Shown here one piece after another: positions 905 to 16,548 of a DNA stretch of 23,059 nucleotides. This DNA is from a virus. The notes below the pieces were generated by a model, which did not search any database, had not been told where the DNA came from, and saw only the letters and a program-made list of their open reading frames with translations. Made by a program: the position numbers and the translations under genes. How positions within the stretch are numbered: position 1 is the stretch's first letter; the number at the start of each line of letters is the position of its first letter. The stretch spans positions 1 to 23,059 of IMG/VR virus record IMGVR_UViG_3300020457_000107; one strand, written 5' to 3'.

Positions 905-912
905 TATAAATA
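905..912 (+). promoter_or_regulatory. T4-type late promoter box TATAAATA
   Basis: An exact TATAAATA lies in the 82-base gap between the small hypothetical gene and the gene at 975. This octamer is the T4 late-promoter consensus, recognised by the phage gp55 sigma factor with gp33/gp45. Transcription would start about 6-7 bases after the box, leaving a leader of about 55 bases. GAGGG at 967-971 is a suitable ribosome site. It would drive the tightly packed genes from 975 to about 9438. Confidence 0.75.
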
Positions 913-974: not shown

Positions 975-2189
975 ATGTTTAGTTTTAAAAGTTTTTTCAC
1001 ACAGGACAAAAACACTCACATAGAACATTTAGAAGATGAGATAATTAATAAAGGTTCTAAAGGTGGGCAAAATGCTATAAGTTTTTTAAAGTCAGTAAGA
1101 GATATGCTGGCTGGTAATACTAGTGGCAAATTTAATACAACTGTTAAATGGGATGGTGCTCCAGCAATAATATGCGGAGTTAATCCTGAAAACGGTCGTT
1201 TCTTTGTTGGTACAAAATCTGTATTCAACGTTAATCCAAAAATCAATTACACAACTGGAGACATAAGACAGAACCATACAGGTGCTGTTGCTAGTAAACT
1301 AGCAGTATGTTTAGCACATTTAAAAACATTAAACATTAAAGGTATACTACAAGGTGATTTGTTATATACAGATGATAGAAAAGTTGCGTCTATTGATGGA
1401 CAAAAGATGATAACTTTTACACCTAATACAATTACATATGCAGTACCAATTGATAGTGATATAGGAAGAAAAATTGCTCGTTCTAAAATGGGTATAGTTT
1501 TCCACACATTGTATAGTGGTAAGACTATGAAAAGTTTAAGTGCAAATTTTGGTAATGTTAGCGGTTCAGGTAATGCAAGAGTATGGGTTGCAAGTGCAGC
1601 TTATAAAGACCATTCTGGAAGTGCTATGTTTACGAAGTCAGAAACAAAACAATTTGATGGTCTAATAAGAATGGCAGAAGGTTCTTTATATAAAGGTTCA
1701 AGTATACTGGATGAAATGACTAGTAATGCTAGTGATCCATTGTCAGTAGGCTTTAGATTAAAAAGTTTCTTTAACTATTATATAAAGAATACAAAAGGTG
1801 GTATGGGTAAGGTTGCTTCTTTACAGAAATTGTTTAGAGATTATTATGAGAATACTTTACAAGCAGAAATAGACTCTAGAAAAACTGATAAAGGTAAAGT
1901 AAAATATAAACAAGCATTAGCAGATGGTTTAAGATTTATTAATAGAAATAAAACATCTTTATATTTTGCAATAGCAAGTTATATAACTTTACAAAATGCA
2001 AAGAATGCTTTAGTGCAAAAGATGAGTCAGATACAACAGATAGGACATTATATAAGAACACCTAAAGGATATAGAATAACATCACCAGAAGGTTTTGTTG
2101 CTGTTGATAGAGTAGGTGGTGCAGTTAAACTAGTAGATAGATTAGAATTTAGTAGAGCAAACTTTACAATGCCGAAAGGATGGAGTTAA
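975..2189 (+). CDS. Divergent DNA/RNA-ligase-like nucleotidyltransferase (predicted)
   Basis: This 404-residue protein belongs, from memory of similar marine T4-like phage sequences, to a conserved family of unknown function. It carries what look like the ordered motifs of covalent nucleotidyltransferases (ligases and capping enzymes). Motif I is TVKWDG with K58 as candidate adenylated lysine. A strand GRFFVGTKS at 74-82 follows, then GILQGDLLY at 123-131 (motif III-like) and GIVFHTLYSG at 173-182 (motif IIIa-like). SPEGFVAV at 370-377 is motif IV-like, and AVKLVDR at 383-389 is motif V-like. A helical insertion of about 180 residues separates IIIa from IV. Ligase activity is inferred, not shown; it could be a degenerate or structural derivative. 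The start has GAGGG eight or so bases upstream. The stop shares a base with the next start. The N-terminus MFSFKSFFTQ weakly resembles the head-targeting peptides described for neighbours. Confidence 0.6.
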   Translation: MFSFKSFFTQDKNTHIEHLEDEIINKGSKGGQNAISFLKSVRDMLAGNTSGKFNTTVKWDGAPAIICGVNPENGRFFVGTKSVFNVNPKINYTTGDIRQNHTGAVASKLAVCLAHLKTLNIKGILQGDLLYTDDRKVASIDGQKMITFTPNTITYAVPIDSDIGRKIARSKMGIVFHTLYSGKTMKSLSANFGNVSGSGNARVWVASAAYKDHSGSAMFTKSETKQFDGLIRMAEGSLYKGSSILDEMTSNASDPLSVGFRLKSFFNYYIKNTKGGMGKVASLQKLFRDYYENTLQAEIDSRKTDKGKVKYKQALADGLRFINRNKTSLYFAIASYITLQNAKNALVQKMSQIQQIGHYIRTPKGYRITSPEGFVAVDRVGGAVKLVDRLEFSRANFTMPKGWS

Positions 2190-3277
2190 TGGCAATACAA
2201 ACATTTAAAGAAGTATCAACGTCAAGAGCTTTTGATATGGAGAAAGCAATTGTAGATGGTATGAATGGAGATAAACATACTGTAAAATCTATTGACAAAA
2301 AGGCTGTAGATAATATAATTAAGTTTATGAAAAAAGCAAAAGTATCTGGTAAGGCAAGAATGCCAGCAGGTTCTTATCCTACAAACAGTAGAAAGTGGGA
2401 CAAGTATTTTCCAGGTGGTAAAGTTCCAGGTGGAACTAAAACACCTAAAACAGATATGATAATAGGTAGACATAAAGTATCTTTAAAAACAGGACCAGCA
2501 CAATTAACAAGTGGTGGTAAGTATGAGGCAATGGCATTATATTATAATGCAGTAGAGAGGTCAGGTAAAAGACCAACAGGAATAGTTAGAGAGATACAAG
2601 AAGGTTTGAAAAATTTAGCACCGTCTACTACAGCACAGGTCAAAGGTAATTTAGGAAGTCTTATTAAGAGTAAGAAAGATGAAATAGTAAATAAAGCAAA
2701 TGCATTAAATCATAAATTAAAAAAACAAATTAAAGAACAATTTGCTAGTGGTGGACAGATACCTTATTACTTTGTAGAAGAAGCTATATCTGGTGACATT
2801 AAGTTTAATAGAAATGATGGAACAGCAGATTATATTTTGGTTACAGATTTTAATGGTGTTAATAATAGAATACATAAGACAAGTAATAAAACATATGTAA
2901 ATTATTTAGCAAAACAAGTTAGACCAGAAGTTAGATTTAAGTCTTCTTCTCAAAAAGTTTCTGGAACTAAAACAGGTTACTATAGATATTGGGGTGTGAT
3001 TGGATTAGTATCTGAACAAATTGCTGATACTGAATTTAATATGTTGCAAGAAGAGTTAAAACAAGAAGGCTTATTAACAGAAGGTTGGTTTGATACTATT
3101 AAAGCAAAAGGAAGAGAAGTATTAGATAGAATAAATCAAACCTTAACAAATATTAAAAACAAAATTATGAACTTTGTAAAAGGTGTCATAAGTTTTATAA
3201 AAGATAGTTGGGAAAATGTGTTAGAGTTTATGGATATAGAACCAGAAGTTTCACATAACAACTATGTAGGATGGTAA
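2189..3277 (+). CDS. Predicted PD-(D/E)XK nuclease-fold phage protein
   Basis: I start this 362-residue protein at the ATG at 2189, which overlaps the preceding TAA by one base and has AAAGGA about eight bases upstream. An in-frame ATG at 2180 lies inside the previous gene and is less well placed. Residues 87-100 (KTDMIIGRHKVSLK) fit the D-x(n)-(D/E/S)-x-K core of PD-(D/E)XK nucleases, with D89, S98 and K100. An N-terminal glutamate helix (DMEKAIVDGMN, E18) and a following helix with AQLTSGGKYEA also fit. The substitution of Ser for the second acid occurs in some members but leaves activity uncertain. The last 60 residues, after LLTEGWF, look like amphipathic helices. LLTE/G also resembles sites cut by the T4 gp21 prohead protease. 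It sits between ligase-like and kinase genes, suggesting a shared nucleic-acid role. Confidence 0.55.
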   Translation: MAIQTFKEVSTSRAFDMEKAIVDGMNGDKHTVKSIDKKAVDNIIKFMKKAKVSGKARMPAGSYPTNSRKWDKYFPGGKVPGGTKTPKTDMIIGRHKVSLKTGPAQLTSGGKYEAMALYYNAVERSGKRPTGIVREIQEGLKNLAPSTTAQVKGNLGSLIKSKKDEIVNKANALNHKLKKQIKEQFASGGQIPYYFVEEAISGDIKFNRNDGTADYILVTDFNGVNNRIHKTSNKTYVNYLAKQVRPEVRFKSSSQKVSGTKTGYYRYWGVIGLVSEQIADTEFNMLQEELKQEGLLTEGWFDTIKAKGREVLDRINQTLTNIKNKIMNFVKGVISFIKDSWENVLEFMDIEPEVSHNNYVGW

Positions 3278-3278
3278 G

Positions 3279-5981
3279 ATGAAGTTTAAAGAATTTTTAT
3301 TACAGGAAGGTATATACGATCCAGGTATATTTAAAGCCTTCTTTATGGCAGGAGGACCTGGTAGTGGTAAATCATTTATAGCTGCTAATACTTTTACTGG
3401 AACTGGATTAAAGTTTGTCAATTCTGATACAGCATTTGAAAGAGGATTGAAAAAGGCAGGTCTTTCAGATAAAATGCCTGACCAAGAAAAGTATTTTAGA
3501 GATATTATAAGAAACAAAGCAAAAGGTTTAATGAATAAACAATTAGACGCTTATGTTTCAGGAAGATTAGGTTTAGTTATAGACGCAACTGGAAGAGATT
3601 ATGATAGAATTAATAGTGAGTATCAAATGCTACACGCATTAGGCTATGATTGCTATATGATATTTGTTAATACAACTTTACCTGTTGCGTTAGAAAGAAA
3701 TAAAATAAGAAGTAGAACTATACCAGAATATATTGTACAAACATCTTGGGAGAAAGTACAAGCTAATATAGGTAAGTTTCAAAGATTATTTGGTATGAGT
3801 AATATGATGATTGTTGATAACAACAAGTCAGACCAAGAATTGGTTACAAGAACTTTACAAAATTGTGATAGAATAGTTAGACGATATATGAGAGCACCAG
3901 TTAAAAGTTATGTTGCAAAAAACTGGATGGAAAAGGAAAAGATGTACAAGAATAAATTAAATGAGGCTGTTATAGACGCACCTAGGACTACATATGCTCC
4001 TGGTGTATTTGACGACCACGCAACTAGTAATCCAAAAATAAAATCTAGTGTTAGAGAAATGATTGATAATCAACTTAAAGAATTTAGTAAAGAATATCCT
4101 GTTTTAAAAGTTAGTTTAGTTGGTTCTATACTTACAAAGAGATATAGAAATGACGCTGATTTAGATTTCAATGTATTGTTTGATGTGCCAGTAGAGAAAC
4201 AAGAAGAAGAGAGATTAAGATTATCTCAAAAGTATCTATCTGCTAAAAGTCCAGAGAAAGTTAATGGAACATTAATACCTGGTACACAACATCCTATTAA
4301 CTATTATTTTATTACTGATCCTAAAACTCATCAAGACCAAGAAGATAAAGCGGATGCTGTGTTTGATTATAGAGGTAATATGTTTACTAAAAGACCAGCA
4401 GATTTTACGTTTGATATGAAAGACTATCTATCAGCGTATCAAAGAAAAGTACAAGAGATAGACATAGTTAAAGGAGAATTAAAAAGAGATATTATAGACT
4501 ATGATGAACTAAAAGGTTTGTCTACAGACGAAGTTTTAAATTTACAAGATAAGATTAATGAAAAGTTAGAAGAGATTGAACAGTCTTTAAAAGATATTGT
4601 TGATATTGGAGATGATGTATTAACTGCTAGAAGAGCTGCGTTTGATTCTGATATGACGCCTGAACAAATTAAAAAGTTTAGTATTAAAAATAGATTACCT
4701 AAAGCAGTTATCTATAAGTTATTAGAAAAATATCATTACTTAAAATTTTATAAGAAGTGTAAAGATATATTAGATGATAACAAGGTTACGGATGCTGAAA
4801 TAGATAGTTTAAAAACTGAAGCTGTTGCTGATAAGTCTATTGCAATTACATTTGGAAGATTTAATCCACCTACAATAGGTCACGAAAAACTTATTAATAG
4901 AGTTGTAAGAGCAGATAGAAATTATAAAATATATTTAAGCAGGTCAGAAGATAGTAAAAAGAATCCATTATCAGTTAGAGATAAGTTAAAGTATATGAAA
5001 CAAATGTTTCCTCAATATGCTAGAAACATTGAAATCAATACAACAAATATGATATTAGATATTGCAACTATGCTATATAAGAAAGGTTATAATGTTCTTA
5101 AATTTGTAGTAGGTAGCGATAGAGTAAGAGAGTTTGATACTATACTTAAAAAATATAATGACCAAAGAAATAGACACGGTTATTATAACTTTAAAACAAT
5201 AGATGTTATATCTGCTGGTGAAAGAGATCCAGACGCTGAAGGTGCTTCAGGTATGAGTGCAAGTAAGATGAGGGACGCAGCTTCTAAAGATGATATAGCT
5301 TCATTTAAGAGAGGCCTACCATCTGGTTTTAGAGATGTTGATGGACTATTTAAAGCAGTAAGAAAAGGTATGGGTTTAAAAGAAGAGTATAAAGAAGACA
5401 CTTCAAAACCTATTATGACACTACAACAATTTGAACAAAAACAAGTTAGAGATTTATATGTTAGAGAAATGATATTTAACATAGGCGACAAAGTTAAGTA
5501 TCTTAAAGAAGACAAAGAAGGTAAAGTAGTACGAAGAGGTACGAACTATGTTGTAATAGAAGAGAATAATAATTTACACAAATGTTGGATATGGGATTGT
5601 ATTCCAATTGCAGCTGATAAAGAACCAGTAATAAGAGAATACAACCTAGACATTGATTATGGTTTCAAAGCAGTATCAAAGAAAGAAGAATCTTATGAAA
5701 TAGGTGCTGATTATGCTAATCATTGTAAACAAATAACACCAGGAGAGAAAGAAGACGCACCTCCTGTTGACTCAAAAGACCGTGGAAAACCTACTGATCC
5801 ATACATATCTCACCCTGGTAAAGCAACGGATGCTAAAGTAGGAGAAGATAAGTTAAGTAAGAAAGAAGTAAAAGAATGGGCCGCTTCAGAGTCGGTAATA
5901 GATAAATATAAGCAGCGATACGCAGAAGAATGGAAATCTAAACTAAACGAAGTAGTCGCTAAGATGATTGAGAAATTATAG
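3279..5981 (+). CDS. Three-domain fusion: P-loop kinase, pol-beta-type nucleotidyltransferase, HIGH-family nucleotidylyltransferase
   Basis: This 900-residue protein starts one base after the preceding stop. Residues 1-10 (MKFKEFLLQE) resemble the ten-residue capsid-targeting peptide of T4 internal proteins. Residues 20-190 form a P-loop kinase of the polynucleotide kinase/zeta-toxin type, with Walker A GGPGSGKS at 25-32, a DATGRDYDR segment at 102-110 and a lid region rich in Arg near 140-147. Residues 270-350 look like a pol-beta superfamily domain: VGS at 281-283, then DADLDFN at 292-298. Residues 520-690 are a HIGH-type nucleotidylyltransferase like NMNAT or cytidylyltransferases, with FGRFNPPTIGH at 525-535 and GMSASKMR at 658-665. 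Residues 732-775 look like an SH3/KOW-like barrel (IGDKVKYL...GKVVRRG), followed by a charged tail. The substrate is unknown. NAD salvage (NadR pairs NMNAT with a kinase, in the other order) and RNA end processing are both possible. Confidence 0.75.
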   Translation: MKFKEFLLQEGIYDPGIFKAFFMAGGPGSGKSFIAANTFTGTGLKFVNSDTAFERGLKKAGLSDKMPDQEKYFRDIIRNKAKGLMNKQLDAYVSGRLGLVIDATGRDYDRINSEYQMLHALGYDCYMIFVNTTLPVALERNKIRSRTIPEYIVQTSWEKVQANIGKFQRLFGMSNMMIVDNNKSDQELVTRTLQNCDRIVRRYMRAPVKSYVAKNWMEKEKMYKNKLNEAVIDAPRTTYAPGVFDDHATSNPKIKSSVREMIDNQLKEFSKEYPVLKVSLVGSILTKRYRNDADLDFNVLFDVPVEKQEEERLRLSQKYLSAKSPEKVNGTLIPGTQHPINYYFITDPKTHQDQEDKADAVFDYRGNMFTKRPADFTFDMKDYLSAYQRKVQEIDIVKGELKRDIIDYDELKGLSTDEVLNLQDKINEKLEEIEQSLKDIVDIGDDVLTARRAAFDSDMTPEQIKKFSIKNRLPKAVIYKLLEKYHYLKFYKKCKDILDDNKVTDAEIDSLKTEAVADKSIAITFGRFNPPTIGHEKLINRVVRADRNYKIYLSRSEDSKKNPLSVRDKLKYMKQMFPQYARNIEINTTNMILDIATMLYKKGYNVLKFVVGSDRVREFDTILKKYNDQRNRHGYYNFKTIDVISAGERDPDAEGASGMSASKMRDAASKDDIASFKRGLPSGFRDVDGLFKAVRKGMGLKEEYKEDTSKPIMTLQQFEQKQVRDLYVREMIFNIGDKVKYLKEDKEGKVVRRGTNYVVIEENNNLHKCWIWDCIPIAADKEPVIREYNLDIDYGFKAVSKKEESYEIGADYANHCKQITPGEKEDAPPVDSKDRGKPTDPYISHPGKATDAKVGEDKLSKKEVKEWAASESVIDKYKQRYAEEWKSKLNEVVAKMIEKL

Positions 5982-5989
5982 AGAGAGAA

Positions 5990-6376
5990 ATGGCAACTAA
6001 TTACAAAGAATACGTACATAATTTGTGGGTAGCGGAAAGCTCATCAATGGTTATGAAAGGTGTAGACGACTACATTAAAATTGGTAGAGAAAAAATTAAG
6101 AACCATCCACAATTTGCTAACCTATACAAAGACCAAAAAAGAGATTACTCAACTTCCATTGGTCCTAAATACATTAAAATCTGGGATATGGAACGAGGAC
6201 AAAAAAGAAGTATCCACGCTTTTATAGACAAGGTTTCAGGAGATGTTTTAAAGGCTGCTGGAGTTAATGCACCTGCAAAAGGTCCAAGAGGAAACGTATT
6301 AGATAGAAATTATATGGATAGTTTAAGACGTATGTTTGATACACACGGCGGACATCTATACAAAAGAAGATACTAA
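5990..6376 (+). CDS. Conserved small phage protein of unknown function (128 aa)
   Basis: The ATG at 5990 has AGAGAGA immediately upstream (5981-5988) and lies 8 bases after the previous stop. The protein is basic and soluble. Its middle region has IKIWDMERGQKRSIHAFIDK followed by SGDVLKAAGVNAPAKGPRGNVLD. That segment reads like a small compact domain (an 'FID...GDVLKPA...APAKGxRxN' pattern) that I associate, from memory, with short conserved proteins in several tailed phages. No catalytic motif is evident and its role is unknown. Position inside the late transcript suggests a virion or packaging-associated protein. Its last codons are two bases from the next start. Confidence 0.65.
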   Translation: MATNYKEYVHNLWVAESSSMVMKGVDDYIKIGREKIKNHPQFANLYKDQKRDYSTSIGPKYIKIWDMERGQKRSIHAFIDKVSGDVLKAAGVNAPAKGPRGNVLDRNYMDSLRRMFDTHGGHLYKRRY

Positions 6377-6377
6377 A

Positions 6378-7904
6378 ATGGGATCCTTAAAAGAAGAACT
6401 AGAAAAGTGGAAGAAAAGTAGGTATCAAAAACCTATGAGTGTGGCTCTTGCGGAAGTAAGAGAAGGTCACGATTGTGATAAAGAACACCCAAAAAGATCC
6501 CACAAAGACTGGATGAATACTGAACCAGTTAAAACAGTTAAAGAAGATATGTTTGATGAAGGTAGAATGAAAGATATCTACACGATGGATCAAGAAGGTA
6601 AATCTCCAGAAGAGATTGCTAAGAAATTAAAAATAAATGTCAAGACTGTAAAAGGAATACTTGGCGAAGAAACATTACACGAATTTTCAGACGCTCAAAT
6701 AAATCAACTTAAAAAAGAGTATGAACCATTAAGAGGTAAAACTATAAGTGGTCCTAACGCTACCAAGTTGATGAGTATATTTGATAAGTTTGATAAGAAT
6801 AAACAGCTTTTAATTAAGATATTAAAAGCAAATATTCCATTTGTGTCAATGTTAGCGCAAGCAAGACTTATTTCCAAACACGGAGCGAATGCTGCCCAGT
6901 TGGCACAAATGAGAAAAGAAGAATTAGAAGAAAATGCTGCTGTTGAATTACAAAAGAAAGTAGCAAAAGGTGGTATGGATAAACAGATGTTTCAAAAGTC
7001 TGTTGACCTATTAAAATCTAAAAAATATGATGAGTTGAAAAAGCATTTAAAAGCTAGTGATACTGCTCCAAGAGAATATGTAATGGATTTAATTGCTAAA
7101 AAAGAACCTGCTACATTTAAAAAGATGTATGGTAATCAAACAGGTTACTATTCATTAATGAATCAAAATGAAGAATTAGAAGAAGCAAAAATGCCTTTCA
7201 GATTATCTTATGATGACAAGTATGGAAAACACGCAGGCTTTGAAGACGCAAAAACATTACAAGATTTACAAAACAAAGCACAGAAATTAAGAGCTAAAGG
7301 ATTCAAGATTAATAAAATGGGTAGAAATACATCTCCCGTTGAACAAAAGTTACCAGAACCAGAAGGTAAAAGAGAAGTAGAAGAAGATACAGATTATTTA
7401 AAGAGTAGATTAAATCCTACACAAATTAATAACATTAAGAAAACTTGGTCAATGAAGACAGCAAAAGATATTACTCCTGCTGTAAGAGCTATGATTAAGA
7501 GAATGGATATACCTACTCAATTAGCTATCAAACAAGCAAACATACCTCATCTATCAAAATTAGTTGAAGGTACAGATGAAGCTTTAATAGAAGCTTGTTG
7601 GAAAGGTTATACGCAAGTTGGTATGAAAGAAAAAGATGGTAAAGAAGTACCTAATTGTGTGCCAAATAAAGACGGTAAGATTCCTCCACAAAAGAAACAA
7701 GAGGATAAAGCACACGCAATTGGTATGGCAAAGGCTAAAGAAATTATGAAAGATGAGCCACCATTAGAAAAGAAAACTATTAAGAAAGCACACGATATTG
7801 CTAAGGCTATCAAAAGAGATGAGAGTATAAATAGTCGTACAGGTCCCCAAAAGACTTTTGAGCGAATCTGGATGCAACATAAGAGGGGAGATAAAAGAAA
7901 GTAA
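6378..7904 (+). CDS. Multidomain phage protein with HTH-like segment and duplicated helical module (508 aa)
   Basis: I choose the ATG at 6378, two bases after the preceding stop; an in-frame ATG at 6336 lies deep inside that gene. The protein is lysine/glutamate-rich and mosaic. Residues 62-96 (GRMKDIYTMDQEGKSPEEIA and following) look like a helix-turn-helix of the 'EGKSxxEIAKxLxxxVKTVK' type. Residues 105-160 and 347-396 are a degenerate internal duplication: AQINQLKK... with KANIPFVSMLA, versus TQINNIKK... with QANIPHLSKLV. Residues 407-429 hold CWKGYTQVG...KEVPNCVP, a Cys-containing motif I have seen in other phage head-associated proteins. No enzyme signature is visible. A virion or internal head protein is likely from the late operon position, but this is inference. 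Confidence 0.6.
   Translation: MGSLKEELEKWKKSRYQKPMSVALAEVREGHDCDKEHPKRSHKDWMNTEPVKTVKEDMFDEGRMKDIYTMDQEGKSPEEIAKKLKINVKTVKGILGEETLHEFSDAQINQLKKEYEPLRGKTISGPNATKLMSIFDKFDKNKQLLIKILKANIPFVSMLAQARLISKHGANAAQLAQMRKEELEENAAVELQKKVAKGGMDKQMFQKSVDLLKSKKYDELKKHLKASDTAPREYVMDLIAKKEPATFKKMYGNQTGYYSLMNQNEELEEAKMPFRLSYDDKYGKHAGFEDAKTLQDLQNKAQKLRAKGFKINKMGRNTSPVEQKLPEPEGKREVEEDTDYLKSRLNPTQINNIKKTWSMKTAKDITPAVRAMIKRMDIPTQLAIKQANIPHLSKLVEGTDEALIEACWKGYTQVGMKEKDGKEVPNCVPNKDGKIPPQKKQEDKAHAIGMAKAKEIMKDEPPLEKKTIKKAHDIAKAIKRDESINSRTGPQKTFERIWMQHKRGDKRK
7826..7833 (+). promoter_or_regulatory. Candidate internal late promoter TATAAATA
   Basis: An exact TATAAATA lies near the 3' end of the 508-residue gene, about 72 bases before the start at 7906. 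Its distance to that start is like those of the other late boxes here, so it could boost transcription of 7906-9438. Being inside coding sequence of an AT-rich genome, it may also be chance. Confidence 0.4.
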
Positions 7905-7905
7905 A

Positions 7906-8934
7906 ATGAGTAATTATTTAAAACATAAACCAGGTAGTCTTGAAGATACAATTAATAAAAATCTTCCAGAAGATGGTTACCAAGATAAATTTAAAAAAGA
8001 ACTAGATAAAGCTGGTAAAGGCATTGGTGCAATGACACCAAAAGAAAAGTCAGCTTTCTTTAACAAAGTAGACAATATCAAAAAAACTAAAGACGAAGAC
8101 GCTAAGAAAGTACAAAAGCAAAACGTAGATAGTAAAAAATTAAAAGAAGATAATGATACTGCTTTCGCTATATCAGGAGTAGAATCAGAAAGACCAGTAG
8201 AGAATCCAGATTTAAGATCCGAACTACAAGAAAGAGGCGGAGCTAATACATCTACAAGACAAGGTAGTTTTGCTAAAAGTAGAAAACCAAAATATAGATT
8301 TGGATATAGAGTTGCAGAAAAAGATCCATCTGTTAAAGAGAAAAAAGAAAATTTAGAAAATACTATTAAAGGTATGTGGGGAGAGGCTGCTAAAGATACA
8401 GAAGAGAGAGGCGACTCAAAACTATTACCTACTAAAAACAAAGTAGAAACTAAAAAAGAAGACGCTATTCCAGCAATTAAAAAAGATAATAAACCAGGTG
8501 TTAAAATTGCAAAGATAAGAGCATTAAGAGATAAAGAAACAGGACAAGATGGCGCACCAGGAGAACCTAAAAAAGATCCTGAAGCTATGGAGAAACAAAT
8601 TTTAACTCTTCAAGGACAAGTTAATCAATTAAAAGTTAAATTAGAAAATGAAAAGAACAAAGCAGTTAAACCTACACCTGATAAAGAAACAGGTGAAGTT
8701 CCTTTAACAGTTGGTCTTGCTCATAAACTTTTAAGAGATAAAGCTGAAAAGAAAGAAGAAGAAGAAAAGAAAGACGTTAAAAAAGAAGACGTTGACAAAC
8801 CAGGTTTCAAAGACTACGTGATGAAATACCTTAAACAAGAAAAAGAAAAATCTGAAAAAGGTAAAGGTAAAACTATGACAGGTGAACCTGCTACAAAAGT
8901 AGATACAAAGCCAGAGATTAAATATACCGCTTAG
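7906..8934 (+). CDS. Highly charged, lysine/glutamate-rich phage protein (342 aa)
   Basis: I start at the ATG at 7906, one base after the previous stop; an ATG at 7858 lies inside the preceding gene. The protein is dominated by Lys, Glu and Asp with few hydrophobic residues, so most of it is probably disordered. One stretch (nucleotides about 8581-8670; EKQILTLQGQVNQLKVKLEN) has a heptad pattern and should form a coiled coil. A more ordered block is RKPKYRFGYRVAEKDPS at about residues 124-140. There is no signal peptide or enzyme motif. Such composition is typical of internal head, scaffold-core or assembly proteins in T4-like phages, but no specific family is recognised. Confidence 0.55.
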   Translation: MSNYLKHKPGSLEDTINKNLPEDGYQDKFKKELDKAGKGIGAMTPKEKSAFFNKVDNIKKTKDEDAKKVQKQNVDSKKLKEDNDTAFAISGVESERPVENPDLRSELQERGGANTSTRQGSFAKSRKPKYRFGYRVAEKDPSVKEKKENLENTIKGMWGEAAKDTEERGDSKLLPTKNKVETKKEDAIPAIKKDNKPGVKIAKIRALRDKETGQDGAPGEPKKDPEAMEKQILTLQGQVNQLKVKLENEKNKAVKPTPDKETGEVPLTVGLAHKLLRDKAEKKEEEEKKDVKKEDVDKPGFKDYVMKYLKQEKEKSEKGKGKTMTGEPATKVDTKPEIKYTA

Positions 8935-8949
8935 GAGGCAAGTTTCATT

Positions 8950-9438
8950 ATGCCTCTTCCATTTATATATTGCGATATGGACGGAGTTTTAGCAGACTTT
9001 AAACGAGGTGCTGAAAAAGCAACAGGTGTGCCTATTAATAAATGGATGAGTTTAACTAAAGCAGATAAATGGAATCCAATTAAAAACGATAAAAGATTTT
9101 GGGAAGACCTTCCTTGGATGCGTGATGGAAAACAACTTTGGAATTTCATTAGCAAATATAAACCAGCATTACTTTCAGCTTATACAGATAGAGATCCTAA
9201 TTGTAAACCAGGTAAGATGAAATGGGCAGCTAAAAATTTAGGTTTAGGTACTAATAGAGTTAATCTAGTTATGAGAAGTCAGAAACAAAACTATGCTCAG
9301 ACAGGTTATAGAAGTCCTGCAGTATTAATTGACGATTATCCAGCAAACGTACAACAGTTTAGAGCAAGAGGTGGTATAGGAATAGTACATACCACAGCGT
9401 CTAAAACTATAGCCGAGTTAAAAAAACTAGGTTATTAA
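8950..9438 (+). CDS. HAD-superfamily phosphatase (5'(3')-deoxyribonucleotidase-like)
   Basis: This 162-residue protein has the HAD signature: FIYCDMDGVLADF at 5-17 with nucleophile D9 and acid/base D11, a motif II serine in LLSAYTD at 74-80 (S76), candidate motif III lysines at 87-91, and motif IV LIDDYPAN at 126-133 (D128, D129). Length and layout fit the NT5C-type 5' nucleotidases rather than large capped HADs. Likely reaction: phosphate removal from a (deoxy)nucleotide or from a nucleic-acid 3' end, as in the phosphatase domain of T4 polynucleotide kinase. GGAGG at 8934-8938 precedes the start. It closes the gene run that begins at 975 and may supply the phosphatase partner to the kinase fusion, which is inference. 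Confidence 0.8.
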   Translation: MPLPFIYCDMDGVLADFKRGAEKATGVPINKWMSLTKADKWNPIKNDKRFWEDLPWMRDGKQLWNFISKYKPALLSAYTDRDPNCKPGKMKWAAKNLGLGTNRVNLVMRSQKQNYAQTGYRSPAVLIDDYPANVQQFRARGGIGIVHTTASKTIAELKKLGY

Positions 9439-9450
9439 ACACCTCCTACA

Positions 9451-9458
9451 TATAAATA
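9451..9458 (+). promoter_or_regulatory. T4-type late promoter box TATAAATA
   Basis: An exact TATAAATA lies in the 80-base gap after the HAD phosphatase gene, 60 bases before the start at 9519. It is the only promoter-like element in this gap and is followed by a good ribosome site (GAGGAGAG at about 9506-9513). Confidence 0.75.
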
Positions 9459-9518
9459 TACACATATATTAAGAATTGAGTACTTTAAACAAAGATAACA
9501 TTTAGAGGAGAGAATACT

Positions 9519-9800
9519 ATGTCATCACATTCAAGTGCAGACTCGGCTGCTGGCGCACCTTTATGGGCGTGTGCGGCTGCTAAATTAGCGTTCACGTCAG
9601 CAAATAGAACAAACTTATTTGAAGACGCAACTGCTGATAACTTTATCACAGGAATAACTTTAGGTTTATTCAACTATGCAGATGGAGAAGTACCAGCTGG
9701 TGCTGCTCACGCAGGTTGGAACTTAAAGACAACTGGTTCTGGTGGTAGAAGTGGTAGAGTCCAATACGAAACTATAGTAGCATTAACAAACGCTGCTTAA
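9519..9800 (+). CDS. Small virion structural-type protein (93 aa)
   Basis: The start is well supported by GAGGAGAG just upstream. The protein begins MSSHSSADSAAGAP, is rich in Ala, Gly, Thr and Asn, and ends with HAGWNLKTTGSGGRSGRVQY followed by ETIVALTNA. This shape, with the 'SANRTxLFxxxTADNF' core and the 'GGRxGRVQYETLVA' end, matches a short structural-type protein that recurs, often in several copies, in marine T4-like phages. It has no membrane segment. It sits as a single-gene transcription unit between a late promoter and a hairpin terminator, which implies high expression and fits a decoration or tail-associated protein. The exact virion position is unknown. Confidence 0.7.
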   Translation: MSSHSSADSAAGAPLWACAAAKLAFTSANRTNLFEDATADNFITGITLGLFNYADGEVPAGAAHAGWNLKTTGSGGRSGRVQYETIVALTNAA

Positions 9801-9813
9801 TAAACAATAATAT

Positions 9814-9839
9814 AGGGGCGACCTATATAGGTTGCCCTT
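9814..9839 (+). terminator. Hairpin terminator after the small structural gene
   Basis: The stem is AGGGGCGACC paired with GGTTGCCCTT (10 pairs, two of them G-U) around the loop TATATA. It starts 13 bases after the stop at 9800. The tail is only weakly U-rich (TTATAAAT), so termination may be partial. The last base of the 3' arm is the first base of the next late promoter. Confidence 0.65.
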
Positions 9840-9846
9840 ATAAATA
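9839..9846 (+). promoter_or_regulatory. T4-type late promoter box TATAAATA abutting a terminator
   Basis: An exact TATAAATA begins at the end of the hairpin's 3' arm. It lies 70 bases before the start at 9917, giving a leader of roughly 64 bases. It would drive the run from 9917 to about 14437. Confidence 0.75.
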
Positions 9847-9864
9847 ACTATATAAACAAAGTGA

Positions 9865-9900
9865 TTGCGTCAACTGGCGCAAGTAGCATTCCCGAAAGGG
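9865..9900 (+). other. Structured leader RNA with two small hairpins
   Basis: Within the leader of the gene at 9917, TTGCG (9865-9869) can pair with CGCAA (9878-9882) around an eight-base loop. CCCGAAAGGG (9891-9900) forms a short stem capped by a GAAA (GNRA) tetraloop. The second hairpin ends four bases before AGGAG, the ribosome site. It may stabilise the mRNA or expose the ribosome site. The stems are short, so this is a moderate call. Confidence 0.4.
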
Positions 9901-9916
9901 TTAATAGGAGATAAAA

Positions 9917-10378
9917 ATGGCAGACAAAAAAGTCACCCAGCTTACCGATTTAGGTAACGCATTAGCAAGTGTGGATTTATTCCACGTAATTGATGATCCA
10001 TCAGGAACACCAATCAACAAAAAAGTATCAGCGGAAAATGTATTTCATAACGTTCCATCTTGGATCGGTATGGCACAGGTTAGTCAATCACTAGTAAGTG
10101 ATGGCTCATCAGCATTAACGGTTGATGTAGAATCAGCGGTAACAGAAATTAATGGAACTGCTGGTATAGCAACTTGTAGTTTAGCAGATGGTTCAAACGG
10201 ACAAGTTAAAGTTATCATTAATACAGCAACATCAGGAACATATACACAAACTATAACACCTACAAATTTAAGAGGTTATACAAGTGTATTATTAAACGCA
10301 CCTGGAGAAACTGTAACCTTAATGTTTAAGAATTCAAACTGGAACATTATTGCTGGTAACGGATACGCAACAGCGTAA
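9917..10378 (+). CDS. Phage structural protein, tail-fibre/appendage type (153 aa)
   Basis: The start is preceded by TAGGAGATAAAA. The N-terminus MADKKVTQLTDLGNALASVD and following DLFHVIDDPSGTPINKKVS resembles an N-terminal module I recognise from many marine phage appendage proteins. The rest is rich in Thr, Ser, Gly, Asn and Val, alternates polar and hydrophobic residues, and ends NSNWNIIAGNGYATA, like the beta-rich C-terminal domain common in such proteins. No signal peptide, membrane segment or catalytic motif is visible. It is short, so it may be a minor fibre, whisker or decoration protein rather than a receptor-binding fibre. It is the first gene after a late promoter with a structured leader. 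Confidence 0.65.
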   Translation: MADKKVTQLTDLGNALASVDLFHVIDDPSGTPINKKVSAENVFHNVPSWIGMAQVSQSLVSDGSSALTVDVESAVTEINGTAGIATCSLADGSNGQVKVIINTATSGTYTQTITPTNLRGYTSVLLNAPGETVTLMFKNSNWNIIAGNGYATA

Positions 10379-10401
10379 TTATATTATAGGAGTATTAAAG
10401 A

Positions 10402-10614
10402 ATGGCAACAATAGATTTGAATACCCTAACGAATCAAAAGTTAGAATTACAAAGTGATTTTAATAAGTTAGGCGCTAATATTAAACAAGTTGAAGTGGAT
10501 TTAGCACAGATGAAAGCAAACTTAAATGCTTTAAATGGTGCTATGCAACAAGTAAACAAGTTAATAGAAATGGCTGGCGGAAATCCAGTAGAAAAAAATG
10601 ATAAAAAAGTTTAA
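10402..10614 (+). CDS. Small coiled-coil phage protein (70 aa)
   Basis: ATAGGAGTATTAAAG precedes the ATG. The sequence is almost entirely a predicted heptad coiled coil: NQKLELQSDFNKLGANIKQ, then EVDLAQMKANLNALNGAMQQ, then VNKLIEMA, ending in a short charged tail. Similar short coiled-coil proteins accompany structural genes in marine T4-like phages. A chaperone or assembly role is plausible but not shown. Its last codons overlap an upstream start option (10598) of the following gene. Confidence 0.65.
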   Translation: MATIDLNTLTNQKLELQSDFNKLGANIKQVEVDLAQMKANLNALNGAMQQVNKLIEMAGGNPVEKNDKKV

Positions 10615-10714
10615 AAGTTTTGCAGAAGATAAACAATTAGACGATTTTGAAGAAGAATTAATTAACGCTGATTGTCCTAAAACGGACACAGTAGAAATAA
10701 AAAAAGAGGAGAAA

Positions 10715-11152
10715 ATGAAGACGTTAAAACAACACATAAAGGAACAATCCAAATATGGAAAAGGTAACGTTGGTACACCAGAAGTTAACGCTGTAGAAGA
10801 CGGCAACATTGGTGTTCATAATATCCACGATAAAGATGTACTAGAAAGAGTTAATGCTTTTGTTGGTTCAATTGCAGACCTAGAGTACATTAAACCTCAA
10901 CAAGCTGTTGATAGTTTAAGAGAAAAACTAAACAGAATAGGTTTAACAGTATCACCAGTAAATATGGAAGGTACTAGTGGAAAAGTAAGTGCAAAAGTAA
11001 GTCAATTCGGTGGTAGATTTGGAAAAGATACTGATGGTAGCGATTTAAATGATGATGGAATATCACATAAAAAAGAAGGCGGCTTAAATTTAGAAGTATC
11101 TTACGAAACGTTAAAGAACGGAAGTTCCAAAGTCTACGCTAAATTAGTGTAG
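10715..11152 (+). CDS. Phage head-associated-type protein with capsid-targeting-like N-terminus (145 aa)
   Basis: The ATG at 10715 has an ideal GAGGAG at 10706-10711, so I prefer it. The same frame is open back to an ATG at 10598 (184 aa), which lacks a clear ribosome site and overlaps the previous gene by 17 bases. The preferred N-terminus is MKTLKQHIKE, ten residues ending in I-x-E, like the T4 internal-protein targeting peptide. Residues 30-75 include a helical segment (HNIHDKDVLERVNAFVGSI), followed by a Gly/Ser-rich section containing DTDGSDLNDDGISHKKEGG and a beta-like C-terminus ending YAKLV. No enzyme motif is seen. An internal head or core protein is the best guess. Confidence 0.6.
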   Translation: MKTLKQHIKEQSKYGKGNVGTPEVNAVEDGNIGVHNIHDKDVLERVNAFVGSIADLEYIKPQQAVDSLREKLNRIGLTVSPVNMEGTSGKVSAKVSQFGGRFGKDTDGSDLNDDGISHKKEGGLNLEVSYETLKNGSSKVYAKLV

Positions 11153-11156
11153 TACA

Positions 11157-11516
11157 ATGGAAGAAATAACCAAAGATAATTGGTTGCATTTTGCTAAGGA
11201 TAATTATGATAATACATCTCTTGACCGAGATGTGGAGTTTGAAGAAGACTTAAAGCGATTTAAATATCTTAAAAGGTTATTTCGTAAGTACCATACTACA
11301 GGCGAAGTAAAGATACGATTAATTATTAATCATATCATAGTTTTGCAAAATGTATTTGGTGCTGACGTTGCGGTCACCTTGTTATTATTTAAGATTGAAA
11401 AAGAATATTGGTCAGTATTAAAAACTATATTAAATTATTTAAAGTTTTTATATGCTCACGAACTAGGAGACATTGACGAAGACGATAAAATAAAGGATAT
11501 GCTAAAGGAACTATAA
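11157..11516 (+). CDS. Conserved T4-like phage protein of unknown function (119 aa)
   Basis: It begins four bases after the previous stop without an obvious ribosome site, so coupling is likely, and its TAA shares a base with the next ATG. The protein is helical, with an acidic N-terminus and the core FKYLKRLFRKYHTTGEVKIR followed by LIINHIIVLQNVFGADVAV. I recognise this core ('KxRLxxNHxIVLxNVFG') from conserved hypothetical genes of marine T4-like phages, where it travels with the next gene. It has no membrane segments despite the hydrophobic stretches, which look like buried helices. Its function is unknown; an assembly or virion role is inferred from context. Confidence 0.7.
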   Translation: MEEITKDNWLHFAKDNYDNTSLDRDVEFEEDLKRFKYLKRLFRKYHTTGEVKIRLIINHIIVLQNVFGADVAVTLLLFKIEKEYWSVLKTILNYLKFLYAHELGDIDEDDKIKDMLKEL

Positions 11517-11989
11517 TGGCTGGAGTAATAGATACATTAATTACGTATAGAATATTAAAACTTATGGTTACACCTTGGGAAAGACAAGAGGCTTTCAAAC
11601 GAGGTATAATTGATAAGAACGGTAATGTATTGAAAAAAAGAAAAGAACTCAAAGACAGACAAGATAAGAAAGCATATACTATATTACATAGATTTGTTTT
11701 TAATATGAAACGAATACTTAAACGAGTAGGTTTAGGAAGTAGATTTGGTTCGTTTGCAGCTGCTTTAGCAATGGTATTAAGAGAAGATAAAAATTTGTTA
11801 TTACACAAAGACGCTATAGAAGCAGGTGTTATAACATACTTGAAAGAAACCAATCAGTATGAACAACTATTAAACGAAGTAAGGGAGATACCAGATATAG
11901 ATGATGAACCAGTAATGACCTGTTTAGGTATAGACATCTATGAAAAAAATAATCAATTGGTATCTGAAATGGACTATGAAAAGTTATAA
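11516..11989 (+). CDS. Conserved T4-like phage protein of unknown function (157 aa)
   Basis: ATG overlaps the previous TAA (TAATG), with AAAGGAAC just upstream. The protein opens with DTLITYRILKLMVTPWERQE and AFKRGIIDKNG, a segment typical of a conserved marine T4-like phage family that follows the 119-residue protein. A basic central part (KKAYTILHRFVFNMKRILKR) is followed by GLGSRFGSFAAALAMVLRED and an acidic C-terminus. It is soluble and helical, with no enzyme signature. The fixed pairing with its neighbour suggests that the two products interact, as an inference from gene order only. Confidence 0.7.
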   Translation: MAGVIDTLITYRILKLMVTPWERQEAFKRGIIDKNGNVLKKRKELKDRQDKKAYTILHRFVFNMKRILKRVGLGSRFGSFAAALAMVLREDKNLLLHKDAIEAGVITYLKETNQYEQLLNEVREIPDIDDEPVMTCLGIDIYEKNNQLVSEMDYEKL

Positions 11990-12308
11990 ATCAATGATGG
12001 ATGAAATCATCAACAAGATTGATGAGGATGCTCCAACAAATGCAGTAGGCGATGGTGGTAATGTAGCGTTGCCTCCAAAGCACGAACCAGGTGTGGATAA
12101 AAAGAAGAAAAAAGATCCAATTTTAGGTACGTTAAAACGAAAAGTACAAGAAAGTAATGATAATAACAATGTTGTTTTGAAAGGTATTGAAAGTATAATA
12201 AATAAATTAGAAGAAAAGATTGACGAAATTTCTGGAGTAGTCAAAGAGGAGATAAAAATAGAAACTCCTAAAAGAAAAAAGACTATTAAAGAGAAAGCAA
12301 AACTATGA
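11976..12308 (+). CDS. Small phage protein with capsid-targeting-like N-terminus and APTNAVG motif (110 aa)
   Basis: I prefer the ATG at 11976, which overlaps the previous gene by 14 bases and gives the N-terminus MKSYKSMMDE, a ten-residue peptide ending in Glu like the T4 internal-protein signal. Upstream (11940) and downstream (11994) ATGs are possible; none has a strong ribosome site. Residues 19-42 include APTNAVGDGG...EPGV, a motif recurring near the N-termini of marine T4-like phage head-associated proteins. Then come a lysine cluster (KKKKKD) and a coiled coil (GIESIINKLEEKIDEISGVV). The end is very basic. A scaffold or internal head role is plausible. It overlaps the next gene by four bases (ATGA). 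Confidence 0.6.
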   Translation: MKSYKSMMDEIINKIDEDAPTNAVGDGGNVALPPKHEPGVDKKKKKDPILGTLKRKVQESNDNNNVVLKGIESIINKLEEKIDEISGVVKEEIKIETPKRKKTIKEKAKL

Positions 12309-12586
12309 AATCGTTTAAAGAGTTTATAGGAACAACAGGAGTTAGAATAGGAAACTATTCAAACCACCAACCTATTGCTAGTTTAGGCGATACACCACCA
12401 AAGAAAAGAGCTGGTGGAAAAAATGTTAGAGGTGTAGGTTTACACGCTGCTTATACAGGTGCTGTAAATCAAAGACCTATGGTTTCTGCCGATCCAAAAA
12501 AAGGCAAGAAAGAAAATACTATGGGGGGAATGGTTCACGTAAGAGGTGCTCAACCAACTGCCAGTATAAAAACGAAGAGGAAATAA
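12305..12586 (+). CDS. Small basic glycine-rich phage protein with capsid-targeting-like N-terminus (93 aa)
   Basis: ATGA overlap with the preceding stop. The N-terminus MKSFKEFI closely matches the first eight residues of the T4 internal-protein targeting peptide (MKTYQEFI), although the following GTTG lacks the glutamate normally used for cleavage. The remainder is basic and glycine-rich, with KKRAGGKNVRGVGLHAAYTG and a C-terminus ending SIKTKRK, consistent with a disordered nucleic-acid-binding or capsid-lumen protein. There is no hydrophobic core. The family is not recognised. It is the last gene before the membrane/lysis-type cluster. Confidence 0.55.
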   Translation: MKSFKEFIGTTGVRIGNYSNHQPIASLGDTPPKKRAGGKNVRGVGLHAAYTGAVNQRPMVSADPKKGKKENTMGGMVHVRGAQPTASIKTKRK

Positions 12587-14354: not shown

Positions 14355-14437
14355 AAATACTTTATACCCTAGCAGGTATTGTGGCAATCTTAACTATTAT
14401 TATAGTTATGAGTGTCTTTGTAATTGCTTCTATTTAA
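14351..14437 (+). CDS. Tiny hydrophobic membrane peptide (28 aa)
   Basis: The ATG at 14351 overlaps the preceding TGA (ATGA), which suggests translational coupling. The product is MKILYTLAGIVAILTIIIVM then SVFVIASI, a single hydrophobic helix of the length of a membrane span, with one N-terminal lysine. The stop at 14435-14437 lies within the last codons of the convergent cyclase gene. Its tiny size makes it uncertain, but the coupling and composition argue for a real micro-protein. Confidence 0.4.
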   Translation: MKILYTLAGIVAILTIIIVMSVFVIASI

Positions 14438-16046
14438 TAGAATAGATAGTAACCTTTTCCTCTTTACCTTTAACCTTTACATCATCTAGTTTATACCAAT
14501 CAAAACCAGTTAAATCTTTACGTGTGAACTCACTAATTACTATGTTAGTATCATAGTTTTTACTTACACCTTCTAGTCTACTTGCCAAATTAACAGCGTC
14601 ACCTATAACAGAATAATCAAACCTTTGTTCACTACCCATATTACCTACAAGACAAGGGCCTGTATTGATACCAATACCTATGTTTAGAGGTGGATCAAAT
14701 GTCATCTCTTTAAGTTTTTTTCTCATCTCTTGAGCTGACTTAACTGCTAATCTTTTATGCTCAGCATTATCTAGCGGTGCATTCCAAAAAGCCATTATAC
14801 AATCGCCCATATACTTATCAATAGTACCACCATTTTTTAATATTATATCAGTCATTGCAGTTAAAAACTTATTAACATATTGAGTAAGTTTTTCTGGTTC
14901 ACCTTTAAACTTTTCTGATATAGGAGTAAAACCTCTAATGTCTGAAAACAAAAACGTTAACTCTTTTCTTTCACCACCAAGTTTTAATAGAGATGGATTT
15001 TTTTGCAGTTTCTTAACCATATCTGGAGATAGATAGTGTTCAAATTGTTTTTTAATTTGCAATCTTAATTTATTTTCTTTTGCATAATTTTCATAAGTTA
15101 ATTGTGCCCATACAATAGAACCTATAACAAGTGGACTAAACCAATCAACTAAAATTAAATGTTGTGACCATAGATAAGCACTCATAATACCTATATCACC
15201 TACATAACTAGCGTACCATATTGCAGACCACTTAACACTACAACGAGGTATAGTCTTTACAAAAAATAAAATACTTACTAATATAAATGCCAATTCAGAA
15301 TATTTTATCCATTGTGGTCTACTAATAAAATTTTTAGACAATAAAGTTTCTGTGCTTATTGCCATAATTTCGTGTGTATTTTTTAAACCATTAGGAGTGG
15401 TAACAAATGTTGAACCTTTAAATGTAGTACCTATAAAAACTATTTTACCTTTCATAGATGACCAATCTTTATCTGTATAATCTATTCTAGGAATATGATG
15501 TCTAAAATCTATCCATATTTCTTCAGCGTTTGTTTTAAATTTAATTACATCTAAAATTGTTTTAGGTATAGAACCATCTAATGGAAGTTTTCTTATTGTA
15601 CCATCAATATCAACAGGTACAGATACGTTTCCTATTGCAAGTGCTTTACGTGAAATACTTTGTAGATTTTTTACTTCATCCGTTTCAGTAAGTATGACTG
15701 GATATTTTGAAATCATTTTTAAAAACATTTCATCACCACCTAATCTATCTTTATATGGAAAGACAACTTGTAAAACTACTAGAGCGGCACCATTTTTATA
15801 CGCATTGATTATTGTACGTCCTAATAGGTCTCTTTTCCAAGGCCATTGACCTTGCTTTTTCAAGGCTTGATCCGATATGTCCAAGAGTACTAGACTTTTG
15901 GATTCATAATTCTTTCCAAATTTTTGGTAGGAATCAAATGTATTTAACTTTGCTATCTGAAGCAATACTGGATTGACCAAATAAATTGTCAGTAAAACCA
16001 CTAGCGTCAAATATATTGACCACTTCTTTATATAATTCAACTTCAT
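14430..16046 (-). CDS. CHASE2-domain membrane adenylate cyclase (class III)
   Basis: This 538-residue protein is the only sizeable minus-strand gene. Residues 11-31 are a membrane helix. Residues about 40-245 are a periplasmic CHASE2 sensor, with LVLLDISDQALKKQGQWPWK at 52-71 and KGKIVFIGTTFKGSTFVTTP at 199-218. Three membrane helices follow at about 250-315. Residues 360-538 are the class III cyclase: metal-binding D369 (FSDIRGFT) and D415 (DKYMGD), adenine-specifying K411 and D483 (IGDAVN), and transition-state N486 and R490 (NLASR). All are intact, so it should convert ATP to cAMP. Base composition matches its neighbours. It diverges from csgF with 43 bases between them and runs towards the late genes. 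No clear ribosome site precedes its ATG. Such cyclases are common in bacteria, often near FecR-domain genes, but unusual in phages. Confidence 0.9.
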   Translation of the reverse strand: MKLNYIKKWSIYLTLVVLLTIYLVNPVLLQIAKLNTFDSYQKFGKNYESKSLVLLDISDQALKKQGQWPWKRDLLGRTIINAYKNGAALVVLQVVFPYKDRLGGDEMFLKMISKYPVILTETDEVKNLQSISRKALAIGNVSVPVDIDGTIRKLPLDGSIPKTILDVIKFKTNAEEIWIDFRHHIPRIDYTDKDWSSMKGKIVFIGTTFKGSTFVTTPNGLKNTHEIMAISTETLLSKNFISRPQWIKYSELAFILVSILFFVKTIPRCSVKWSAIWYASYVGDIGIMSAYLWSQHLILVDWFSPLVIGSIVWAQLTYENYAKENKLRLQIKKQFEHYLSPDMVKKLQKNPSLLKLGGERKELTFLFSDIRGFTPISEKFKGEPEKLTQYVNKFLTAMTDIILKNGGTIDKYMGDCIMAFWNAPLDNAEHKRLAVKSAQEMRKKLKEMTFDPPLNIGIGINTGPCLVGNMGSEQRFDYSVIGDAVNLASRLEGVSKNYDTNIVISEFTRKDLTGFDWYKLDDVKVKGKEEKVTIYSIK

Positions 16047-16089: not shown

Positions 16090-16548
16090 ATGAAGTATAT
16101 TTCCAGTATATTTGCTGTATTATTTCTATCTTCTACTGTATATGCGAGTGAACTTACCTTTGAATTTGGGAGTCCTTCGTTTAGTGGTAAAGGTAAATCA
16201 TCACACTATTTAACAATAGAGAACATTGAGAAGACTAGAAAAGACGCTATCAAAGCTGCCGATAAAGCTGCTAAAGAAAAGGCAGAAGCGGATGCTAAAG
16301 CAACAGCTATATCAAAATTTAAAGCAAATTTAGAAGCAAGATTTTACACAGCTCTTGCTAAACAAATAACAGACAACGTATTCGGTACAGATGGTCTACA
16401 ACAAGACTCAGGAACATTTACATCACCTATTGGTGGAGAAGTGGTAACTTGGACAACACCATCTGGAACAGGTAATGTAGTAGTAACCGTAACCGAGTCT
16501 GATGGAACGGTAACAACATTTACGTTGCCGAAAGAAGACAACTCATAA
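16090..16548 (+). CDS. csgF: CsgF-like curli assembly factor
   Basis: The 152-residue protein has a Sec signal peptide, MKYISSIFAVLFLSSTVYA, cleaved before SELTF. The mature start SELTFEFGSPSFSG aligns with mature E. coli CsgF (GTMTFQFRNPNFGG), the segment that inserts into the CsgG pore. The asparagines at positions 9 and 11 are Ser here. A lysine/alanine-rich helix follows (about 45-80), then KFKANLEARFYTALAKQITD and a C-terminal part rich in Thr and Val ending TTFTLPKEDNS, matching the beta-rich C-terminal part of CsgF. CsgF sits extracellularly on CsgG and couples secretion to curlin nucleation. It is the first gene after a late promoter and overlaps csgG by the TAATG junction. AGAGAGAGG precedes the start. 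Confidence 0.85.
   Translation: MKYISSIFAVLFLSSTVYASELTFEFGSPSFSGKGKSSHYLTIENIEKTRKDAIKAADKAAKEKAEADAKATAISKFKANLEARFYTALAKQITDNVFGTDGLQQDSGTFTSPIGGEVVTWTTPSGTGNVVVTVTESDGTVTTFTLPKEDNS

Follow-up and report, generated by a model that had tools for sequence, protein, structure and literature searches.

The window analysed here, the whole 23,059-base stretch of IMG/VR record IMGVR_UViG_3300020457_000107, covers part of the genome of a T4-like marine myovirus. Its nearest isolate in the collection of phages compared is HTVC008M, a Pelagibacter phage of the Kyanoviridae, and gene order in the region follows HTVC008M gp126-gp148. At position 3279 it encodes a 900-residue fusion of a kinase to a nucleotidyltransferase-cytidylyltransferase. 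A sequence-only reading had likened the first ten residues of this protein (MKFKEFLLQE), and those of the products at 10715 (MKTLKQHIKE), 11976 (MKSYKSMMDE) and 12305 (MKSFKEFIGT), to the capsid-targeting leaders of T4 internal head proteins, which are cleaved by the gp21 protease. All four N-termini are indeed encoded at these positions. The 10715 and 11976 starts are internal ATGs within longer mechanical open reading frames (10598-11152 and 11940-12308), and the homologues of these genes start at matching places (HTVC008M gp139, MKSFKDFQ...; other relatives, MPKHYKDMMDE...); a strong ribosome-binding site (AGAGGAG) precedes the 10715 start. The orthologue starts of the cassette were read across 79 IMG/VR loci whose products include a protein related to the 900-residue fusion. 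The features are collected in Table 1, a slash marking a predicted cut here and throughout.

Conserved leader peptides in the window and its relatives

In the T4 decapeptide, targeting depends on residues 4 and 7 and processing on residues 8 and 10; gp21 cleaves after L/I-x-E, the propeptides span 10-19 residues, and Asp at position 10 blocks cutting while targeting is kept (PMC9026906). Both ipII and ipIII of T4 start with MKTYQEFIAE/A, and ipI starts with MKTFKEFTSTTTPVSTITE/A. The leader at 3279 and those of all its homologues fall within the propeptide definition (about 10-19 residues with an L/I-x-E end, here LLQE). Among the relatives, the kinase leaders take 14 distinct forms of 8-14 residues (for example MKFKEFLLQE/G, MKSYSQILTE/G, MKNLKEIREFIKE/G, MKTFNYKQFLIKE/G and MIPFILKE/G), and their sequence varies freely, but all 14 have Leu or Ile at P3, Glu at P1 and Gly at P1', the Glu/Gly being followed directly by a conserved YDPxIxKAxF. 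The aromatic residues of the 3279 leader, F3 and F6, lie one residue earlier than T4 positions 4 and 7, and relative to a strict decapeptide pattern that we fixed for counting, M[KQR]x[FYL]xx[FYHLI][ILVMF]xE (R1), it is a one-residue register variant with no exact match. Within the window, only the 10715 leader fits R1 exactly. It has L4 and H7 at the targeting positions (F4 and H7 in most relatives) and ends, with all its homologues, as a propeptide of the same definition (HIKE); 11 distinct leaders were found in this family, among them MKTFKQHIKE, MKTFKEHLKE and MKTFREHLTE, with Glu at P1 in every one and Ile, Leu, Val or Met at P3.

The proposal of a capsid-targeting-like leader cleavable by gp21 is supported for 3279 and 10715, where hydrophobic-x-Glu is invariant at the boundary between leader and domain, and it does not extend equally to the other two. 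The 11976 start ends in M-D-E and not in L/I-x-E, has no aromatic residue at 7 and belongs to a family conserved straight through the supposed cut, so that it is a weak candidate. The 12305 start resembles that of T4 IPI (MKTFKEFTST...), with F4 and F7, and its family keeps MK[ST]FKE[FY][IL]G, but none of the relatives has Glu at 10; the targeting half appears to be kept while the processing Glu is missing, which makes targeting without cleavage possible, and plausible as a reading of this gene. The list of leaders was also incomplete, the products at 5990 and 10598 being plausible additional candidates. Relatives of the DUF7717 protein at 5990 carry the leaders MATKFKEYVHNLYIAE/SS and MKTYKQIRELVNE/Q, and the small frame at 10598, which in the window continues in frame into 10715, is a separate small ORF in relatives (MLKKFKEFNE/D). 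Control families from the same loci (11157, 11516 and 12587) have no such leader. The capsid-targeting reading of 3279 and 10715 may be called well supported.

Table 1. Positions of the leaders, domains, predicted sites and neighbouring genes in the window
Feature	Position	Strand	Basis or remark
Leader MKFKEFLLQE, codons	3279..3308	+	Predicted cut after E10, L-Q-E/G
Leader MKTLKQHIKE, codons (protein 10715-11152)	10715..10744	+	Predicted cut after E10
P-loop kinase domain (AAA_33/Zeta-toxin like), residues 11-229	3309..3965	+	PF13671 E=2e-12, PF06414 E=1e-6
Predicted internal protease site E229/A230, K-L-N-E/A-V-I-D, at the fusion junction	3963..3968	+	Alignment with leader ends of split genes
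Nucleotidyltransferase (NTP_transf_2) and cytidylyltransferase-like part, residues 230-900	3966..5978	+	PF01909 E=1.5e-6, PF01467 E=4e-4
T4-type late promoter -10 element TATAAATA	905..912	+	63 bp upstream of the first gene of the operon (975)
DUF6267 protein (KWDG motif)	975..2189	+	Pfam PF19782 E=2e-121
Unknown protein, second gene of the operon	2189..3277	+	Start MAIQTFKEVS, no Glu-ended leader
DUF7717 protein, candidate 16-residue leader MATNYKEYVHNLWVAE/SS	5990..6376	+	PF24835 E=3e-17
Small frame, start MIKKFKSFAE/D, candidate leader	10598..10714	+	Upstream of and in frame with 10715
MKSYKSMMDE start, weak candidate	11976..12005	+	Homologues MPKHYKDMMDE[IL]INKIDED conserved through the supposed boundary
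MKSFKEFIGT start, no Glu-10	12305..12334	+	F4, F7 and I8 as in T4

A second predicted site at the fusion junction

The kinase domain, which ends in KNKLNE, is a separate gene in HTVC008M (gp129) and in many relatives. Where the second gene is split off, it has a leader of its own, 7-30 residues long and Glu-ended directly before SIIDxPR (20/20 loci; the Glu is present in 16/16 distinct forms), and where the two are fused, hydrophobic-x-Glu followed by Ala or Ser is kept at the same place in all nine distinct junctions. The 900-residue protein of the window contains 21 occurrences of hydrophobic-x-Glu, and only E10 and E229 are followed by Ala, Gly or Ser; these two sites of canonical form ([ILVMF]xE/[AGS]) sit at boundaries and not inside domains. 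Given that E229 is the place at which relatives have a separate, leader-bearing second gene, the fusion may be a polyprotein, and in the simplest reading of these alignments it may be loaded by the first leader and then cut twice. The sequence-only reading had the fusion carried in the head and acting in the host, but with a second cut probable at E229 the 900 residues would not work there as a single enzyme.

Across 14 relatives the catalytic motifs do not vary; they comprise the Walker A motif GGPGSGKS, the GS..DxD of the nucleotidyltransferase, TIGH and SASKMR. The matches to PF13671, PF06414 and PF01909 lie above the Pfam gathering cut-off and that to PF01467 just under it (20.9 bits vs 21); the part comprising residues 230-900 also matches the PHROG 395 cytidyltransferase (E=8e-67). 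AlphaFold models were poor, with a mean pLDDT (predicted local distance difference test score) of 46 for the fusion and 60 for the DUF6267 protein. A Foldseek search against the PDB gave nothing firm, with weak MNT/aminoglycoside-nucleotidyltransferase-like matches for the nucleotidyltransferase part only, and sequence searches of the PDB gave no match. The idea that the phage injects a kit for RNA repair (a PNK-like kinase, the DUF6267 protein as a KWDG ligase-like enzyme and a HAD phosphatase) was considered and dropped as unsupported.

Virion proteins, protease and late promoter

In published mass spectrometry, the cytidylyltransferase (T4-GC190) was detected in virions of S-SM1, but not for S-PM2 (PMC3037559), and in those of S-SZBM1 (PMC9146016), S-SCSM1 (there as NMNAT; PMC9602691) and S-CREM2 (PMC10665884). 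The detected proteins start with MKKFSAFLNE/A (S-SM1), MRFRQFIIE/A (S-SZBM1), MKSFLQFLKE/A (S-SCSM1) and MKNFSSFLTE/A (S-CREM2), while that of S-PM2 starts with VFLATATMDN, without a leader; where cytidylyltransferase homologues carry a leader, Glu stands at P1 in 19/19. The kinase of S-CRM01 virions likewise starts with MISFDQFLSE, and the DUF6267 proteins of S-SZBM1 and S-CREM2, which have no leader, are absent from the published virion tables. In the open-access library searched, which leaves out subscription papers, no paper was found to link the leader to virion enzymes of marine T4-like phages.

The strict pattern R1 occurs at 7/635 annotated N-termini and 0/2671 internal Met of the same proteins from three related phages (p ~1e-5). 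In 48 kb of T4 it recovers exactly ipII and ipIII, and in about 181 genes of the non-T4-like marine phages P-SSP7, HTVC011P and half of PSS2 it has no match. The sequence-only reading had named an equal frequency of the decapeptide at early cytoplasmic N-termini as evidence that would speak against it; this is not so in S-CREM2, where all five R1 proteins (a SAM hydrolase, an APH-like kinase, the cytidylyltransferase and two unknowns) are among the 52 detected in virions and 0/167 undetected proteins match. The enrichment is exploratory, since the S-CREM2 starts were known before the pattern was fixed, and the pooled count over S-CREM2, S-SZBM1 and S-SCSM1 (6/130 vs 3/589, p=0.0016) includes this discovery set; for S-SCSM1 the annotation table flags 48 virion products and the paper gives 45. 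Looser patterns (R2, R4 or any I/LxE) barely separated N-termini from background and matched ordinary proteins, and were therefore not used as evidence; for R4, a comparison of the HTVC008M cassette with the rest gave p=0.003, again exploratory.

Several further proteins of these phages have related starts. S-CREM2 ORF12 (L089:7704-10313), annotated as Cas9/Csn1 and detected in virions, has a W-rich start with the leader motif displaced to residues 16-25 (...KPLRFASFMAE/A), as does S-CRM01 g128 (L181:3702-4253; ...LSLDSFIKE/A); Pfam finds no Cas9 domain in ORF12, so the Cas9 label looks doubtful. The orthologous small proteins S-SZBM1_191 (L096:27312-27629; MKSFKSFLSE/S) and S-SCSM1_30 (L180:4216-4536; MKTFKQFMSE/S), encoded near the terminase genes, have perfect leaders and are not reported in virions; they are candidates for missed small head proteins.

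A gp21 homologue, which the proposed cleavage presupposes elsewhere in the genome, is present in related genomes: Peptidase_S77 (gp21 family, PF03420) was found in HTVC008M and in two large close relatives carrying the cassette (177 kb and 67 kb; G001 and G002), with E values of 1e-34 to 4e-37. At the position aligned with the T4 cleavage site, the major capsid protein reads FLTE/A in T4, YLAE/A in G001, ILTE/A in S-SZBM1, LLTE/A in S-CREM2 and FLGE/I in HTVC008M, giving a capsid motif of [FLIY]LxE in four relatives of this lineage.

The late promoter element TATAAATA lies 67-112 nucleotides upstream of the homologous gene in 21/24 distinct relatives vs 1.4% of random 130-nucleotide stretches; its count over the window as a whole equals chance, so that only position and conservation are informative. 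Late synthesis from such an operon suits the need of head cargo and not that of an early metabolic enzyme. The first product (975) has a leader-like N-terminus without Glu (MFSFKSFFTQ/DKNTH), and its homologues start with MYNDLLVE/D in HTVC008M and INFSKYITE/D in Methylophilales phage Melnitz and are leaderless in cyanophages. Homologues of the second (2189) start with MLSFTGYSNLSE/A in HTVC008M and, by cassette position, MQGFKTFLSE/A in Melnitz. In Melnitz-3 (L179:1239-8771), Glu-ended leaders occur on nearly the whole cassette (MQGFKTFLSE/A, INFSKYITE/D, MKKFSEIIE/A, MTRYNKTMSE/A and MKSIVEVTSINE/E), which suggests a whole operon of head cargo.

Beyond the cassette, window 16090-18639 corresponds to the curli region of HTVC008M, with csgF, csgG and a curlin-associated gene; such genes are already known from pelagimyophages (PMC7029224). 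The minus strand of the window has one long gene (14430-16046), which encodes a 538-residue adenylate/guanylate-cyclase-like protein, so named from its resemblance to the annotation of HTVC008M gp019.

Probable packaging and delivery of leader-tagged enzymes

We consider it likely that the leaders of 3279 and 10715, at the least, are capsid-targeting propeptides of the T4 type and that the enzymes are packaged, cleaved and ejected. The operon from 975 would be transcribed late, the leader would bind the scaffold core of the prohead and carry the enzyme inside, and a gp21-family protease would cut after the Glu, the mature enzyme staying in the head with the DNA until it is ejected at the next infection; the 900-residue protein would also be cut at E229/A230 to give a 219-residue kinase (11-229) and a nucleotidyltransferase-cytidylyltransferase (230-900). 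The tagged enzymes of this phage are probably delivered into the host with the DNA, because their start peptides are of the same kind as those that load the T4 head, and for the window's own proteins we infer packaging, cleavage and ejection, followed by activity in the next host cell, with action at time zero.

The comparison with known systems is close in some respects and not in others. The T4 internal proteins IPI, IPII and IPIII (Mullaney and Black) share the short N-terminal propeptide with an L/I-x-E end, the gp21-family protease and a leader common to otherwise unrelated proteins, while their aromatics at 4 and 7 have a partial counterpart here, but the T4 cargo consists of small basic proteins, whereas here it would be multi-domain enzymes of up to 900 residues, one of them a fusion with an internal protease site. 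T4 Alt, a packaged ADP-ribosyltransferase, is a large head-carried enzyme cleaved by gp21 near its N-terminus (PMC9026906); its enzyme family is unrelated. The virion cytidylyltransferases of S-SM1, S-CREM2, S-SZBM1 and S-SCSM1 have a homologous domain and the same leader, but are encoded by separate genes, and the published reports searched mention no targeting sequence. Cyanophage kinases, including that of S-CRM01, share leader and virion detection but are APH/Ser-Thr-like, unlike the P-loop kinase of the window. In phage P1 DarB, an N-terminal signal is enough for capsid loading of a large protein (PMC9024508), although the lineage and the head assembly differ and no L/I-x-E decapeptide is described.

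Several points weigh against packaging and delivery. When the frozen R1 was applied to the held-out S-SZBM1 and S-SCSM1, it matched 1/78 virion-detected proteins vs 3/422 others (p=0.49). Such virion proteins of S-CREM2 may be co-purified contaminants, according to the authors (PMC10665884), and the S-PM2 proteomics may have been less deep. The HTVC008M cytidylyltransferase starts with MKTLKELLRKK, with no Glu, and in the window a Glu-ended leader is missing from four further genes of this operon. No proteome exists for the window phage, and none for HTVC008M was found in the library searched; the protease gene is absent from the window, a 23-kb fragment lacking that region.

Leaders of this type could also direct proteins to the prohead core for head assembly, the passengers then being kept or degraded and not delivered as working enzymes. 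This would agree with the link of T4 IPIII to head morphogenesis and the cutting up of T4 core proteins by gp21 (PMC9026906), as well as with the small size of the tagged 10715 and 10598 products, which have no enzyme domain. However, the catalytic motifs of the tagged enzymes are invariant in the 14 relatives and the protease sites lie at domain boundaries, none within domains, and we regard such a purely structural role as unlikely. Slightly less probable still is that the Glu and its flanks are part of the folded domains (E/GxYDPxIxKAxF in the kinase, E/SIIDxPR in the nucleotidyltransferase) and conserved for structure rather than cleavage: the residues just past the Glu are conserved too, and the quality of the AlphaFold model is too low for a judgement, but in each of four unrelated families P3 is hydrophobic with P2 and P4 free, exactly as in the L/I-x-E rule of T4.

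We give very little credence to the view that these are ordinary cytoplasmic enzymes that reach virion preparations by co-purification, the likeness of their N-termini being due to base composition and to efficient translation starts (MK..., helices rich in K and E). In its favour, the genome is AT-rich, the loose R2 also catches ordinary proteins and the held-out enrichment was negative. Against it, the strict pattern is absent from every internal Met counted, the boundary Glu is invariant though leader length varies from 7 to 30 residues, the control families lack the leader and the operon has a late promoter.

Kinases and cytidylyltransferases recur in cyanophage virions, and the authors of these studies were undecided between packaged proteins and contaminants (PMC10665884, PMC9602691). 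A conserved, cleavable targeting leader offers an answer at the level of sequence, and an enzyme polyprotein that a tag brings into the head and the prohead protease then splits would vary the theme of T4 internal proteins in a new way. As infection begins, an enzyme of the NMNAT type could restore NAD+. For the Kyanoviridae in general, the chances seem evenly balanced that late-made, leader-tagged enzymes are packed into the head, that the fusion is a head polyprotein split at its junction by the prohead protease before delivery, and that the leader predicts injected proteins from sequence alone; the packaged set would then comprise the kinase, the nucleotidyltransferase and the cytidylyltransferase, with the DUF6267 protein and a nucleotidase in some relatives. 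The leaders lend themselves to trial as delivery tags and offer a simple rule for listing the injected enzymes of the most abundant T4-like phages of the ocean, uncultured ones included.

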